51,057 bases of DNA. Source: Ruminococcus sp. GTDB taxonomy: Bacteria > Bacillota > Clostridia > Oscillospirales > Ruminococcaceae. This document shows, one piece after another, positions 28,754-35,306 of the stretch. Positions within the stretch are counted from its first letter, which is position 1. Every line of letters starts with the position of its first letter. The notes beneath the pieces were generated by a model, which worked only from the letters and a program-made list of their open reading frames with translations, had not been told where the DNA came from and searched no databases. The stretch spans positions 1 through 51,057 of the forward strand of contig JAFXEJ010000120.1 in NCBI GenBank assembly GCA_017513795.1, in the 5' to 3' direction. The position numbers were made by a program, and so were the translations under genes.

Positions 28754-29164
28754 TCATTTAAAGTGCTTCTGGGATATTTTCAGCCTGTTCATAGCACGGT
28801 TCAGCGCCGCCTGAGTCTGATAATATTCCTGAATGCTCTGCTTCTGCCGCAGCTTTTCCTGTGCTCTCTGACGGTCTTCCTCGGCACGTTTTATGTCGAT
28901 TTCCTCCGGAAGCTCGCAGGTATCAGCAAGAATAACCGAGTTATCCGGCATAACCTGTATGAATCCCTCTGAAATGGCGGCATAGTGCCATTTCCCGTCA
29001 ACCATGTATTTCAGTTCGCCGTCAGGAAGCGCCGTTACAAGCGGTTCATGACCAGCCATGATTCCGAGAAGTCCGTCGATAGCGGTGATAACGAGATGTT
29101 CGCATTCTCCCTGATAGAAAACACGGTCTGTGGCGATAATTTCAAGATGAAACGTCTTAGCCAT
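28754..29164 (-). CDS. atpC: ATP synthase F1 epsilon subunit
   Basis: 136 residues: N-terminal beta-sandwich (~1-85, with FHLEIIATDRVFYQGE and AIDGLLGIMAGHEPLVTAL) and a C-terminal helical hairpin (~88-136, DIKRAEEDRQRAQEKLRQK). It links the rotor to the catalytic head and may inhibit ATP hydrolysis. It starts two bases after the atpD stop and is the last gene of the operon. An AT-rich stretch follows it; a weak hairpin TGCAAAT/ATTTGCA (28681-28703) could be the terminator. Confidence 0.94.
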   Translation of the reverse strand: MAKTFHLEIIATDRVFYQGECEHLVITAIDGLLGIMAGHEPLVTALPDGELKYMVDGKWHYAAISEGFIQVMPDNSVILADTCELPEEIDIKRAEEDRQRAQEKLRQKQSIQEYYQTQAALNRAMNRLKISQKHFK

Positions 29165-29166
29165 GA

Positions 29167-30564
<1,398 letters not shown>

Positions 30565-30601: not shown

Positions 30602-31507
30602 CTATTCCAGACTTGATGCGCCGCTGACAACTTCGGTGATTTCCTGAGTGATAGCGCTCTGTCGTGCCCTGTTGTAGAGCAGTGACAGCTGTTTTATCAT
30701 GTCCTTTGCGCTTGTGGTAGCCGAATCCATAGCCGTCATTCTCGACTGCTGCTCACAGCAGAACGCCTCTACCATTGCGCCGTAAATGATTCCCTTTGCG
30801 TAATCCGGGATAAGATGCGCCATAACTTCTTCCGGCGACGGCAGAAATGATGCCTTCGGGAGCTTCTTCATTGTGCCGTCCGGAGCTTTTCCGAAATGTC
30901 TGCGGCTGAACGGCAGAAGCTGTATCATTCTTTCTTCCTGTACGTTGGAAGTCACCATGTCGGTGTAGATAACATACACCTCGTCAAGCTCACGATTCTC
31001 GAATTTATCGAGCACCAGCTTTGCTATTTCCATTGCCCTGTAGAGCGTGGGATTCTGCGTAGTATAGAGGAATTCTCCGTCAACGAAGGGCTTGCTGCTG
31101 TTTTTAAGACGGCTTGTGAAATACATTCTGCCGACGTGTCCCAGCACGAAAAGATAGCAATTGCTGATATCGGGAGATTTTGCAAGCTCGTTTTCGGTGA
31201 ATTTAAGTATGTTGTGGTTATAGCTTCCGCACAGTCCCTTGTCGGCTGTAATGACGATATATCCCTTTTTACGTTTCTCCGGAGGAATATCCAGACGGCG
31301 GTCGAAATACATCTGTCTCATGTGCGGAGTATGCTCCATAACGCTTTCGATAGTCTCCTGAAGCTTGTAGAAGTACGGCTCTGTTGCATCAAGTGCCTTT
31401 CGTGCCTTTTTAAGCTTCGACGAGGATATAAGATACATAGCGTTGGTGATTTTCAGTATCTGCTTTATGCTGTCGATACGTTCCCGTATCTCTCTCATAT
31501 TAGCCAT
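30602..31507 (-). CDS. atpG: ATP synthase F1 gamma subunit
   Basis: 301 residues. The N-terminal coiled-coil helix (REIRERIDSIKQILKITNAMYLISSSKLKKA) and the C-terminal helix (AMDSATTSAKDMIKQLSLLYNRARQSAITQEI) are the family signatures of the central rotor shaft. It lies 13 bases after the fused delta-alpha gene. Confidence 0.96.
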   Translation of the reverse strand: MANMREIRERIDSIKQILKITNAMYLISSSKLKKARKALDATEPYFYKLQETIESVMEHTPHMRQMYFDRRLDIPPEKRKKGYIVITADKGLCGSYNHNILKFTENELAKSPDISNCYLFVLGHVGRMYFTSRLKNSSKPFVDGEFLYTTQNPTLYRAMEIAKLVLDKFENRELDEVYVIYTDMVTSNVQEERMIQLLPFSRRHFGKAPDGTMKKLPKASFLPSPEEVMAHLIPDYAKGIIYGAMVEAFCCEQQSRMTAMDSATTSAKDMIKQLSLLYNRARQSAITQEITEVVSGASSLE

Positions 31508-31520
31508 ATCCGCTCACCTC

Positions 31521-33554
31521 TTATTCCTCGAATGCAGTGACAATGCGCTCTATTCTTTCCGCAAGGTCGTCGGTGAGGACTTTATTCTGTTCAAGTTCTG
31601 CAATTATATCCTGACCGTATGTGCCGATGTAGCTCATAAGCTCGGAGCAGTATTCTTTAAGCTCCTTTGCCGGAATATCCTTGAAGAATCCGTTCTGTGC
31701 CGCATAGAGCAGAATTACCTGTTCATACTGCGGAAGCGGATTGTAAAGCGGCTGTTTAAGCAGTTCCGTGAGCATTCTTCCGTGATTGAGAAGCTCTGTG
31801 GTGGACTGGTCGAGTTCCGACGAGAACTGCGTGAAAATTTCCATTTCCTTGAACTGCGCAAGGTCGATTCGGAGATTTCCGGCGGCTTTTTTCATTGCCT
31901 TTGTCTGTGCGGCTCCGCCTACACGGGATACGGAAAGACCGTAGTTCACCGCCGGACGCTGACCGGCATTGAAAAGCTCGCTTTCAAGGAAAATCTGTCC
32001 GTCCGTAATAGAAATGACATTCGTGGGAATGTATGCCGAAATATCGCCGGCAAGAGTCTCGATGACAGGCAGGGCAGTCAGAGAACCTCCGCCGTGTTCG
32101 TCGTCAAGACGACTTGAACGCTCAAGAAGCCTTGAATGCAGATAGAAAACATCACCCGGATAAGCCTCACGGCCCGGAGGTCTGTGGAGAAGCAGCGACA
32201 TTGCACGATATGCAACGGCATGCTTTGAAAGATCATCATATACAATGAGGACATCGTGTCCCTTTGACATGAAATATTCAGCTATCGCAGTTCCCGAATA
32301 TGGGGCGATATACTGGAAAGGTGCCGGATCACTCGCAGATGCGCACACAACGACTGTGTGATCCATAGCGCCGAATTTTCTGAGAGTGCCCACAACCTGT
32401 GCAACAGTCGAGGATTTCTGACCGATAGCCACATAAACGCAGATAACGTTCTTGTCCTTCTGATTTATAATGGTATCAAGAGCAATAGAGGTCTTTCCTG
32501 TCTGTCTGTCGCCGATGATAAGCTCACGCTGACCACGTCCGATAGGGAACATCGAGTCAATGGCAAGAATTCCCGTCTGAAGCGGTACATTTACCGGCTT
32601 TCTCTCGATAACTCCGGGAGCCTCACGCTCGATAGGGAAGTAATCCTCAGCGATTATCGCACCGCCGCCGTCAATAGGCGAACCGAGAGCGTCAACAACA
32701 CGTCCTAAAAGCTCGCCGCTTACGCCGATTCCGGCACGCTTTCCCGTTCTGATAACGGAGGAGCCTTCTGTAAGTCCGTGGTCGTCGCCGAGAAGCACCA
32801 CGCCCGTAGTTTTTTCTTCGAGGTTCTGAACGATTCCTCTGATTCCCGTCTCAAACTCAACAAGTTCGCCGTACATAGCGGAGTTCATGCCTCTCACCTG
32901 TGCGATTCCGTCGCCGAGACGTGTAATAAAGCCTGTTTCGGTTGCTCCGGATTTCACATCGAAGTCCTGAATTTCCGTTTTAAGCATGGAAATTATATCG
33001 CTCATGGAGCTTAATACAGGCTTATTTTCATTACTCTCCGTATATTCTGCCGCTTTGCTGCGAAGGCTTTCCTTCATGCGGTTCAGGGAAGAGCGATAGC
33101 TCTTATCGTACTTGATATCGCCGGCATTGAGGATGAATCCGCCGATGATATCGGGGTCATGTCTGTACTCTATGGCAACATCTTCCTTGATGAAGCGTTC
33201 CATGATGTACTTGCGCAGATCAGCCTGCTGAGCCTCAGTAAGCGGCGTAACATAGCGGACTACTGCCTTTATACATCCCTGTTTTTCGAGGAGTGCGTCA
33301 TGGTAGCCTTCAAGGGCGGCGGGTATATTTTCAACGCTTTTCGTCTTTATGGCGCTGAGGATGAATTTCTGCATGCTCTCAGGGAAAAGACGTGCAACAA
33401 CAGCACGTTTTTCGTCCGAGGTAACAAGCGGATTTGCAAGTGTATCGGAAACATCTTTACAATCTGTAAAGATATGCTTTGCGGCTTCGGCATCCTCCTG
33501 AGGAACGTCAAGACGGAGAAGCTCTTTCAGAAGCTCTTTATCGGTATTTGCCAT
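31521..33554 (-). CDS. ATP synthase delta-alpha fusion protein
   Basis: 677 residues. Residues 1-~178 are a full-length delta subunit (OSCP; helical N-terminal domain, then the C-terminal segment [24 protein letters not shown]). After a short linker ([11 protein letters not shown]) residues ~184-677 are a complete alpha subunit starting at MSDIISMLK and carrying the P-loop [21 protein letters not shown] and the [11 protein letters not shown]...[12 protein letters not shown] segment. Frame and stop are continuous, so this is a fusion and not two genes. In other bacteria atpH and atpA are separate, with one delta per three alpha. The gene start overlaps the atpF stop by one base. A possible internal start for alpha alone is at 33005. 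Gene symbols elsewhere would be atpH and atpA. Confidence 0.95.
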
Positions 33555-34042
33555 CAGCTTTCAACCTCCTCATCGGATAAGAATTTATCCACAAGGCGGC
33601 GATTCTTCTCGTCATCAAGATTTTCACCGATAATTTTCGAAGCTGCTTCGATAGCAAGGTCAGCAATCTGTGTCTGCGCCTGTGCAAGAACTCTTTTGCG
33701 CTCGTTTTCGATTGTTTTGTTTGCGTCAGAAATAAGCTGATCGGCTTCCTCCTGAGATTTTTTCAGAATAGCAGATTTCTCTGATTCTGCGTCCTCGTGA
33801 GCCTTCATAATGATTTCCTGAGCCTTCTGCTTAGCGTCGCTGATGTTGTCCTCGTACTCTTTTTTCAGAGCCTCAGCTTCTTCCTTTGACTTCTTTGCCG
33901 CATCAAGATCATCCTGAATAGTACGGGTACGCTCATCCATGATCTTGTTTACCGGCTTGAAAAGGAAGATTTTAAGCAGTATGAACAGCAGTATGAAATT
34001 CACTGCTGCCCATATGAAATTCCAGTGGTCTATATCCAGCAT
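33554..34042 (-). CDS. atpF: ATP synthase Fo b subunit
   Basis: 162 residues: one N-terminal membrane helix (~8-27, [21 protein letters not shown]) followed by a long Ala/Glu/Lys-rich helix that forms the peripheral stalk and normally binds delta at its C-terminus. Here delta is part of the next gene product, with which it overlaps by one base (TGATG). Confidence 0.95.
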
Positions 34043-34062: not shown

Positions 34063-34284
34063 TTATTTAAGGAAAAAGATGATAAGAATTGCTATTACGA
34101 AGCCGTAAATAGCTGTTGCTTCGGCAAGAGCGCATCCTAAAAGAAGTGCCTTGTTGATGTCGCCCTTTGCTTCGGGCTGACGTGCGATAGCCTCAGCAGC
34201 CTTTGAAGTTGCAAGACCGATTCCGATTCCGGCGCCGGCACCTGTAAGTACGGCGATAGCTGCGCCAAGTGCGATTGATCCCAT
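34063..34284 (-). CDS. atpE: ATP synthase Fo c subunit, second tandem copy
   Basis: 73 residues, two membrane helices joined by the ARQPEAKGD polar loop. The ion-binding Glu is in LAEATAIYG of helix 2. The Gln in helix 1 and the Ser after the Glu that mark sodium-type rings are replaced by Ile and Ala, so protons are the likely ion. The protein is identical to that of the upstream copy (34300-34521); the two genes differ by six silent substitutions. GGAGG precedes the start. Confidence 0.93.
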   Translation of the reverse strand: MGSIALGAAIAVLTGAGAGIGIGLATSKAAEAIARQPEAKGDINKALLLGCALAEATAIYGFVIAILIIFFLK

Positions 34285-34299
34285 AGTAAATACCTCCGC

Positions 34300-34521
34300 T
34301 TATTTAAGGAAAAAGATGATAAGAATTGCAATTACGAAGCCGTAGATAGCTGTTGCTTCGGCAAGAGCACATCCTAAAAGAAGTGCCTTGTTGATGTCAC
34401 CCTTTGCCTCGGGCTGACGTGCGATAGCCTCAGCAGCCTTTGAGGTTGCAAGACCGATTCCGATTCCGGCGCCGGCACCTGTAAGTACGGCGATAGCTGC
34501 GCCAAGTGCGATTGATCCCAT
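34300..34521 (-). CDS. atpE: ATP synthase Fo c subunit, first tandem copy
   Basis: 73 residues, identical in sequence to the product of the next gene. It lies 18 bases after atpB and 15 bases before the second copy, each copy with its own GGAGG. Two copies raise c-subunit supply for a ring that needs many copies per complex; this is inference. Confidence 0.93.
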   Translation of the reverse strand: MGSIALGAAIAVLTGAGAGIGIGLATSKAAEAIARQPEAKGDINKALLLGCALAEATAIYGFVIAILIIFFLK

Positions 34522-34539: not shown

Positions 34540-35229
34540 TTATTCTTCTTCCTCCATTGCCTCAGCCATGAACAGCGAGGTGAGGAAAACAAATACATAA
34601 GCCTGAATACATCCGTCGAAGATATCAAAATACAAGCCGAGAACCAGCGGGATTCCCACCGGAACAACAAGCCTTACAAGCTCCATTACAACGAATGCGC
34701 CGAGAATGTTTCCGAAAAGACGCATACAGAGCGAGAGCGGCTTGATGAAAAGCTCCAGTATCTTGATTGGCAGAAGCAGCGGCATAGGCTCGATAAAGCT
34801 GTGAAGCCAGCCTTTTCCGCCTCGTTCCTTTATACCGCAGAACTGTATCAGCAGTATTGCGATAATTGCCATCGTTGCGGTAACTCCGAGATCCTTTGTC
34901 GGCGGACGCAGTCCCACGATTCCGACGATATTCGAGATACCGATATAAATCAGCATCGTTTCAAGTATCGGCAGATATTTCTTTCCCTTAGGTCCGAGAA
35001 TGTCAAGAAAAAATTTGTTCATCCAGTTTATTCCCGATTCGATGAGACTCTGCGCTCCCGTGGGAACAGTTTTAAGCTTACGGACGAACAATATGCAGAA
35101 AAGTACGAGAACTGCCATAATTCCCCACGTCATAACGCACGACTCAGGGACGGGGATTCCCCCGAAAATAGGTATGGTAAAGGCTACACGGCATTCAAGC
35201 TCCTCAAGAAGCTTTTCAGCAATATCCAT
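34540..35229 (-). CDS. atpB: ATP synthase Fo a subunit
   Basis: 229 residues from the ATG at 35229, eight bases after AAGGTG; a longer frame to 35295 runs through the leader terminator and is rejected. Several membrane helices, the essential Arg in KPLSLCMRLFGNILG, and a late FDGCIQAYVFVFLTSLF helix identify the proton-channel subunit. It is the first gene of the atp operon; no atpI precedes it. Confidence 0.95.
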   Translation of the reverse strand: MDIAEKLLEELECRVAFTIPIFGGIPVPESCVMTWGIMAVLVLFCILFVRKLKTVPTGAQSLIESGINWMNKFFLDILGPKGKKYLPILETMLIYIGISNIVGIVGLRPPTKDLGVTATMAIIAILLIQFCGIKERGGKGWLHSFIEPMPLLLPIKILELFIKPLSLCMRLFGNILGAFVVMELVRLVVPVGIPLVLGLYFDIFDGCIQAYVFVFLTSLFMAEAMEEEE

Positions 35230-35257
35230 AAATGCAGCACCTTCCTTCTTATTATAA

Positions 35258-35289
35258 TATAAAAACGGAGAGCCCGAAACTCTCCGTTT
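35258..35289 (-). terminator. Intrinsic-terminator-like hairpin in the atp leader
   Basis: On the minus strand AAACGGAGAG (35289-35280) and CTCTCCGTTT (35272-35263) form a 10-bp stem with loop TTTCGGG, followed by TTATATTAT so that five T in a row leave the stem. It lies after the atp promoter (35348-35376) and about 30 bases before the atpB start. It could be an attenuator, or the terminator of upstream genes with partial readthrough. Confidence 0.6.
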
Positions 35290-35306
35290 ATTCATGCAGA
35301 ATCAGC

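Follow-up and report, generated by a model that had tools for sequence, protein, structure and literature searches.

A fusion of the delta and alpha subunits of ATP synthase is nearly universal in Ruminococcus and may place three delta domains on each F1

The window analysed here, a stretch of 51,057 nucleotides from Ruminococcus sp. (contig JAFXEJ010000120.1 of assembly GCA_017513795.1), carries on its minus strand an ATP synthase operon in the order a-c-c-b-[delta-alpha]-gamma-beta-epsilon, which is the full order of an F-type operon. Delta and alpha are encoded together by a single ORF that starts with ATG, contains no internal stop and specifies 677 amino acids. A sequence-only reading of this DNA had described delta and alpha in one uninterrupted frame at 31521..33554; its coordinates were right, the strand is minus, and the Pfam and NCBIfam domains are complete. 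The genes and features are listed below.

34540..35295, minus strand: subunit a (251 aa; ORF, Pfam, NCBIfam)
34300..34521, minus strand: subunit c, first copy, its protein identical to that of the second copy (ORF)
34063..34284, minus strand: subunit c, second copy (73 aa; ORF, Pfam)
33554..34042, minus strand: subunit b (162 aa; ORF, Pfam); its stop codon shares one base with the fusion start codon
31521..33554, minus strand: delta-alpha fusion gene (677 aa plus stop; ORF, Pfam, NCBIfam; conserved in 91 of 95 alpha-bearing genomes of the genus)
33279..33554, minus strand: delta N-terminal domain, residues 1-92; six predicted helices, helix 1 atypical, no Arg at 73 (AlphaFold2, Foldseek, signature columns)
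33039..33275, minus strand: delta C-terminal domain, residues 94-172; b-binding by homology, with GG138/139, D150 and S152 kept (Pfam, signature columns)
33000..33038, minus strand: hydrophilic linker, about residues 173-185; its length and sequence differ from species to species, pLDDT <50
31524..32999, minus strand: complete alpha subunit, residues 186-677, N-terminal helix included (Pfam, NCBIfam, alignment)
30602..31507, minus strand: subunit gamma (301 aa; ORF, Pfam, NCBIfam)
29167..30561, minus strand: subunit beta (464 aa; ORF, Pfam)
28754..29164, minus strand: subunit epsilon (136 aa; ORF, Pfam)

Within the fusion protein, Pfam places OSCP at residues 15-164 (92 bits against a cut-off of 22.3), ATP-synt_ab_N at 207-271, ATP-synt_ab at 328-543 and ATP-synt_ab_C at 550-675, and the NCBIfam equivalog for atpA, TIGR00962, covers residues 184-676 with 747.6 bits (cut-off 484.45). 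Pfam gave no ATP-synt_B match in this protein; b is a gene of its own. The N-ATPases, an alternate form of F1Fo that lacks delta, also have an unusual F-type stator, but the window alpha scores 611.6 bits against their alpha family TIGR03324, below the cut-off of 750.5.

The window's genome is a metagenome-type assembly of 2.56 Mb in 163 contigs, 96% complete, in which a profile search found one OSCP match, namely the fusion. Its four alpha-like matches are the fusion gene, the operon's own beta gene and two frames on contig C50 (29-32% identical), which, going by frame size, are probably V/A-type subunits. The fusion chain is the sole F-type alpha and the sole delta found in this genome. Rnf, a usual low-energy ion pump in such anaerobes, is represented by Rnf-type proteins encoded in the same genome, and their presence fits a low-energy coupling membrane. 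The c subunit of fusion-type operons has no polar residue at the Na+-ligand position and looks H+-type; the c subunit of the conventional operon in locus L158 appears to differ at this position. Among 72 operons of the genus whose locus includes a, c and b, 42 have two c genes and 30 have one.

We surveyed 100 genomes of the genus, the window's own among them, and found an alpha gene in 95. The fusion is present in 91 of these 95, with interruption by contig ends or incomplete frames in three (G032, G035 and G060), and a conventional operon alone is present in four. In 83 of the 91, the window's genome included, the fusion is the only alpha found, whereas in eight it stands beside a second, conventional operon; the separate delta that the sequence-only reading thought might be encoded elsewhere therefore exists in those eight genomes, and not in the window's, with its one OSCP match. 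Named records with the fusion are mostly Ruminococcus. The junction lies in a single frame in 74 script-read loci out of 80 named, and the 74 include 12 Ruminococcus flavefaciens strains without a MAG label (FD-1, ATCC 19208, 007c, YAD2003, Y1, MA2007, YL228, ND2009, SAb67, MC2020, YRD2003 and XPD3002). Since the fusion occurs in 91 of 95 genus genomes and in 12 named strains, assembly error is excluded and the frame is genuine rather than a product of chance. Two records deserve separate mention: the R. flavefaciens FD-1 assembly (G044) holds two copies of the fusion operon with equal alpha scores (L209 and L210), which may reflect duplication or assembly redundancy, and a record labelled Alistipes senegalensis carries a Ruminococcus fusion operon (L230) and is probably mislabelled or a mixed MAG.

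The delta part is near full length with an atypical first helix, as the OSCP match begins at profile position 19. An AlphaFold2 model of the first 210 residues (mean pLDDT 64.8) contains six helices at residues 3-91, with pLDDT of about 75-88 over residues 11-90; confidence drops in the C-terminal domain and is below 50 in the linker, such that the model supports the N-terminal domain only and not its docking. The model of the full 677-aa protein has a mean pLDDT of 54 and is poor outside the N-terminal domain. The top Foldseek ranks for the delta part are delta/OSCP chains of Bacillus PS3, chloroplasts and mitochondria.

Helices 1 and 5 of delta form the groove that receives the N-terminal helix of alpha. 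We compared signature columns, one row per genome, between 81 genus fusions and 47 unfused deltas; the other 10 of the 91 fusion rows, in which the delta part from the first Met was shorter than 150 residues, were left out. In the C-terminal domain G138, G139, D150 and S152 are kept in all 81 fusions. In the N-terminal domain, Arg73 is R in 41 of the 47 unfused deltas and in none of the 81 fusions, and the helix-1 residues common in unfused deltas are likewise rare or absent in the fusions (Y8 in 8/81, A11 in 0/81, F13 in 0/81, window numbering), such that the genus fusions lack the canonical helix-1/helix-5 signature. Four independent or more distant full-length fusions from outside the genus also lack Arg73 (A, H, S or K instead), with Y8 kept in three of the four, A11 in two and F13 in three. 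We had expected the N-terminal domain to decay after fusion and dropped this idea: at alpha identities of 85-90%, N-terminal domain identity is 0.53 among fusions against 0.38 among unfused operons, and that of the C-terminal domain is 0.80 against 0.45, although the pairs behind these values are not independent. Because its identity is higher in the fusions while its signature residues have been replaced, the N-terminal domain thus appears to have been remodelled rather than to be decaying.

The sequence-only reading had proposed a search for fusions across Oscillospiraceae. Beyond the genus, our surveys yielded full-length, C-terminal-domain and triple fusions in the family and the order. 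In the family survey, 99 of 148 genomes had an OSCP match and three outside the genus carried full-length fusions (G152, G208 and G240). In the order survey, 89 other genomes had an alpha match, 27 of them with an alpha frame of at least 579 aa; 25 of these 27 long frames had an OSCP match, two of the 25 being accompanied by a conventional alpha as well. The two long frames lacking an OSCP match (G384 and G284) were not counted as fusions, the OSCP match in a 758-aa frame at G065:C19 was a chance match in an unrelated ORF, and a match in a 280-aa frame at G160:C1 was set aside as its locus, L094, shows no fusion.

Domain typing of the fetched loci with profiles built in this analysis distinguished three forms. 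Full-length delta-alpha fusions occur in relatives at L099, L100, L101 and L254. Fusions of the delta C-terminal domain to alpha (deltaCTD-alpha, type II) occur at 25 loci of other genera and encode 570-675 aa; the delta N-terminal domain is absent and the linkers are shorter, the delta C-terminal helix running almost into the alpha N-terminal helix. Triple b-deltaCTD-alpha fusions (type III) of 736-755 aa occur at nine loci in nine genomes of the family and order (L088, L246-L252 and L278, the last truncated where its contig ends). Upstream of each lies a separate, short b gene of 138-141 aa, and the fused b has a membrane helix. Pfam confirmed the OSCP C-terminal part and the alpha domains in all five triple fusions submitted to it; ATP-synt_B was above cut-off in L246, L247 and L248, just below it in L250 (26.2 against 28) and absent in L088, where b was seen by our own profile alone. 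Furthermore, five loci in otherwise ordinary operons encode unfused, C-terminal-only deltas of 72-74 aa (L262, L263, L264, L265 and L268; the G299 match, L268, includes a TAG in its survey row). Because five lineages have such a delta, the N-terminal domain can evidently be lost without fusion, which weakens the idea, considered earlier, that fusion makes this domain dispensable.

The history of the fusion was followed in a maximum-likelihood alpha tree of 62 rows, in which canonical and Ruminococcus rows were thinned (about one in eight of L166-L245 was used) and which leaves out L263 and L281, wrong rows on very long branches, L157, which a contig end cuts and which had been mistyped as II, and duplicates and close relatives (L102, L158-L162, L260, L269, L271, L272 and L285). 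Four changes between the fused and unfused states are needed, all forced by well-supported branches, and bootstrap trees need four to five. They fall at the triple-fusion clade; at L257/L270 within the clade of unfused mini-deltas; at L099/L100 within an unfused clade; and at the group of Ruminococcus, L101, L087 and a large clade of C-terminal fusions, in which the full-length L254 branches first. Each change may be a gain or a loss, although unfused is the usual state. Within the Ruminococcus/L101/L087/L254 group the C-terminal form arises at least twice beside full-length forms, which suggests that in this group the full fusion came first and the N-terminal domain was lost later.

The sequence-only reading knew of no description of a delta-alpha fusion, but one has been built. 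According to Ueno et al., 2025 (PMC12229609), fusion of delta residues 105-178 to alpha in Bacillus PS3 gave an enzyme, solved by the same authors, with two stalks and a subunits on average and up to three, an H+/ATP ratio of 5.8 against 3.0 and ATP synthesis at half the proton-motive force, and they concluded that the delta N-terminal domain restricts the stalks to one. They also mention natural fusions without the delta N-terminal domain in Acidaminococcus fermentans and two UniProt entries, and the available portion of the paper's main text contains no mention of a full-length delta-alpha fusion. We found no description of a full-length delta-alpha or b-delta-alpha fusion in the open-access papers searched, preprints and supplements being outside the scope of the search. 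Of the 17 PDB sequences listed (E up to 1e-170), the only chain spanning both parts is 9jc1_I, named delta plus alpha, a 580-aa chain present in three copies in its entry that aligns to window residues 93-671. This engineered deltaDeltaN-alpha enzyme of PS3 resembles the Ruminococcus protein in that the delta C-terminal domain lies in frame at the alpha N-terminus, but both it and the A. fermentans fusion lack the N-terminal domain, whose six helices are all retained in Ruminococcus, though altered. The engineered design is matched by the 25 type II loci, and the nine triple fusions go further. New here are the fusion of a full-length delta, its presence in nearly all genomes of a genus that can be cultured, the repeated origin of the fusion, and the triple fusions; the kind itself had already been engineered and briefly noted in nature.

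Other stators offer partial parallels. In the available part of an earlier operon survey the only fusion reported is that of b with delta, and the N-ATPase gene order given there is without delta (PMC5709465). The b-delta fusion of mycobacteria and Gordonia (PMC5709465; PDB 7jg5 and 9vkp) likewise joins a peripheral-stalk subunit to delta, but its partner is b and not alpha, and it raises no stoichiometric conflict because it is present in one copy per enzyme; the type III fusion combines this idea with that of delta-alpha. V/A-type ATPases have two or three peripheral stalks, each near the N-terminus of a non-catalytic subunit, but unlike in Ruminococcus these are E-G heterodimers on a collar and there is no delta (PMC6131620). 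In the Chloroflexus aurantiacus ATP synthase (PDB 9itj-9itu), six entries contain 12 delta and 18 alpha chains, that is two delta per enzyme. This enzyme too has more than one delta per F1, but the number is two, and delta and alpha are separate chains. In the alignment its delta, too, is without an Arg where Arg73 would stand, a single case and only a hint. For these entries our search of the open-access literature returned no accompanying paper.

In the usual F1, three alpha subunits are served by one delta. The best explanation of our observations as a whole, which we hold at about an even chance, is a delta-alpha polypeptide that brings three delta domains to each F1, more than one stalk and a higher H+/ATP. 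The gene would yield one delta-alpha chain, the cell's only F-type alpha and delta, and three such chains per alpha3beta3 head would set three delta C-terminal domains round the top, each on a flexible linker to its own alpha and each able to bind a b2 dimer. The retained N-terminal domain, its helix-1 and helix-5 residues replaced, would no longer sit one-per-enzyme on the central axis. More than one peripheral stalk could then form, each bringing an a subunit of its own, as happens in the deltaCTD-alpha enzyme that Ueno et al. engineered, and the higher H+/ATP would allow a fermenting anaerobe to make ATP at low proton-motive force or to run a strong proton pump in reverse.

The steps of this proposal differ in strength. 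The fusion chain probably stays intact in the cell, although flexible linkers may invite proteolysis. An intact chain would by stoichiometry mean three delta domains per F1, the consequence that the sequence-only reading had drawn under the usual rule. Given an intact chain, we lean towards recruitment of b2 and a by more than one delta domain, because the b-binding domain is strongly kept and the engineered enzyme does so; the bioenergetic effect would follow in turn. A wider proposal we put forward more tentatively, at somewhat under an even chance: natural multi-stalk F-type synthases may be common in the order and have evolved repeatedly by tying the stator to alpha, with a remodelled N-terminal domain in Ruminococcus, contrary to the rule that this domain permits one stalk only, and a triple fusion in a sister lineage. 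If this is true, an enzyme built from triple fusions would necessarily have three stalk chains anchored in the membrane, since a membrane-anchored b, the delta C-terminal domain and alpha are in one chain.

Alternatively, the chain may stay intact in an enzyme with one stalk: one delta would dock centrally and bind b2, the other two would be displaced or idle, and the fusion would be a tolerated accident that secures attachment. The retained N-terminal domain counts for this and against multiple stalks, as its higher identity in the fusions (0.53 against 0.38 at the same alpha distance) implies some role and as this is the domain said by Ueno et al. (PMC12229609) to limit stalks to one; the window operon, furthermore, has a single a gene and a single b gene. 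However, the N-terminal signature residues are replaced in the 81 genus rows examined, the fusion persists genus-wide with at least four fused/unfused changes in the order, and in the triple fusions every alpha would be anchored to the membrane. We consider a single stalk unlikely, though it deserves serious weight.

Cutting of the chain in the linker after synthesis would produce separate delta and alpha chains in a 3:3 ratio, with a single delta retained, or would leave one third of the chains intact. A hydrophilic linker that varies (the spacing is 25-40 residues across 98 rows) and is predicted to be disordered would suit such cutting, but we saw no conserved cleavage motif in it, and the short type II linkers, in which the delta and alpha helices nearly meet, argue against it as well. 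We regard processing of this kind as improbable.

The sequence-only reading had also suggested that alpha might be made alone. Initiation at an internal start would give two alpha and one delta-alpha per F1 and restore the normal stoichiometry, an idea that first came from the ATG at codons 184 and 190 of the window's fusion gene, neither of which has a good ribosome site, and to which the genus comparison gives no support. At one locus per genome we scored every start codon lying no more than 30 codons from the junction by its best contiguous match to a ribosome-site consensus. A match of at least 5 was reached by some start codon in 15 of 91 genomes and by an ATG in only two, at non-homologous places, against 87 of 90 for the fusion's own start and 21 of 361 background windows inside alpha; at a match of at least 4 the figures were 36/91, 17/91, 90/90 and 114/361. 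Any ATG between -12 and +6 codons of the junction occurs in only 6/91. The excess over background is mostly due to a GTG 14 codons into alpha, found in 10 of the 15 genomes. The Val codon at +14 is GTG in 17/91 genomes (17 of the 75 Val codons there) against 12% of Val codons elsewhere in alpha, but initiation there would yield an alpha without its N-terminal helix. Under the same scoring a gamma-beta frame in two close relatives, at L260 and L273, serves as a positive control of the method, with a common GTG preceded by AAAGGA before beta. Type II loci had an internal start with a match of at least 5 in 5/25, one of them an ATG, a weaker test as their true starts scored in only 16/25; the eight type III loci tested (L278 left out) had no start common to all, although L250 and L252 have a common internal start inside the delta domain. 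A separate alpha start is thus not conserved in the genus, though weak initiation may occur in some species, and as 83 of the 91 genomes carry no further alpha gene we hold separate production of alpha to be very improbable. It follows that each F1 should have three delta domains as long as the chain is not cut. Finally, an assembly or sequencing artefact, conceivable for a window from a metagenome-type assembly of 163 contigs, is refuted because this frame recurs across 91 genomes of the genus and in the twelve named strains, and has virtually no probability left.

How many protons are spent per ATP depends on how many peripheral stalks and a subunits the enzyme has. The laboratory deltaCTD-alpha construct doubled H+/ATP, and its authors could only guess at a natural equivalent (PMC12229609). 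Ruminococcus, found in gut and rumen, can be cultured, nearly all of its genomes carry the fusion, and the supposedly limiting N-terminal domain is still there. Its relatives offer a graded series that runs from an unfused delta, whole or reduced to its C-terminal domain, through full and C-terminal fusions to the triple fusion. The existence of a natural multi-stalk F1Fo and the limits on stalk number thereby become testable on native enzymes, for example that of R. flavefaciens FD-1.

Several loci show further rearrangements. At L260 and L273, gamma and beta share one 786-aa frame downstream of a deltaCTD-alpha fusion; the GTG and ribosome site before beta suggest two products. L253 (G339:C17) has two successive matches to the delta C-terminal domain in one 681-codon alpha frame, L104 has, after a complete delta gene, another that encodes the C-terminal domain only, and the open frame of the 251-aa delta at L267 also contains a second C-terminal match. 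At L097 (G145:C133) the a and c genes adjoin two frames that may be long forms of b and delta: one of 276 aa has a b-like match, and in the other, of 293 aa, the C-terminal half matches delta.
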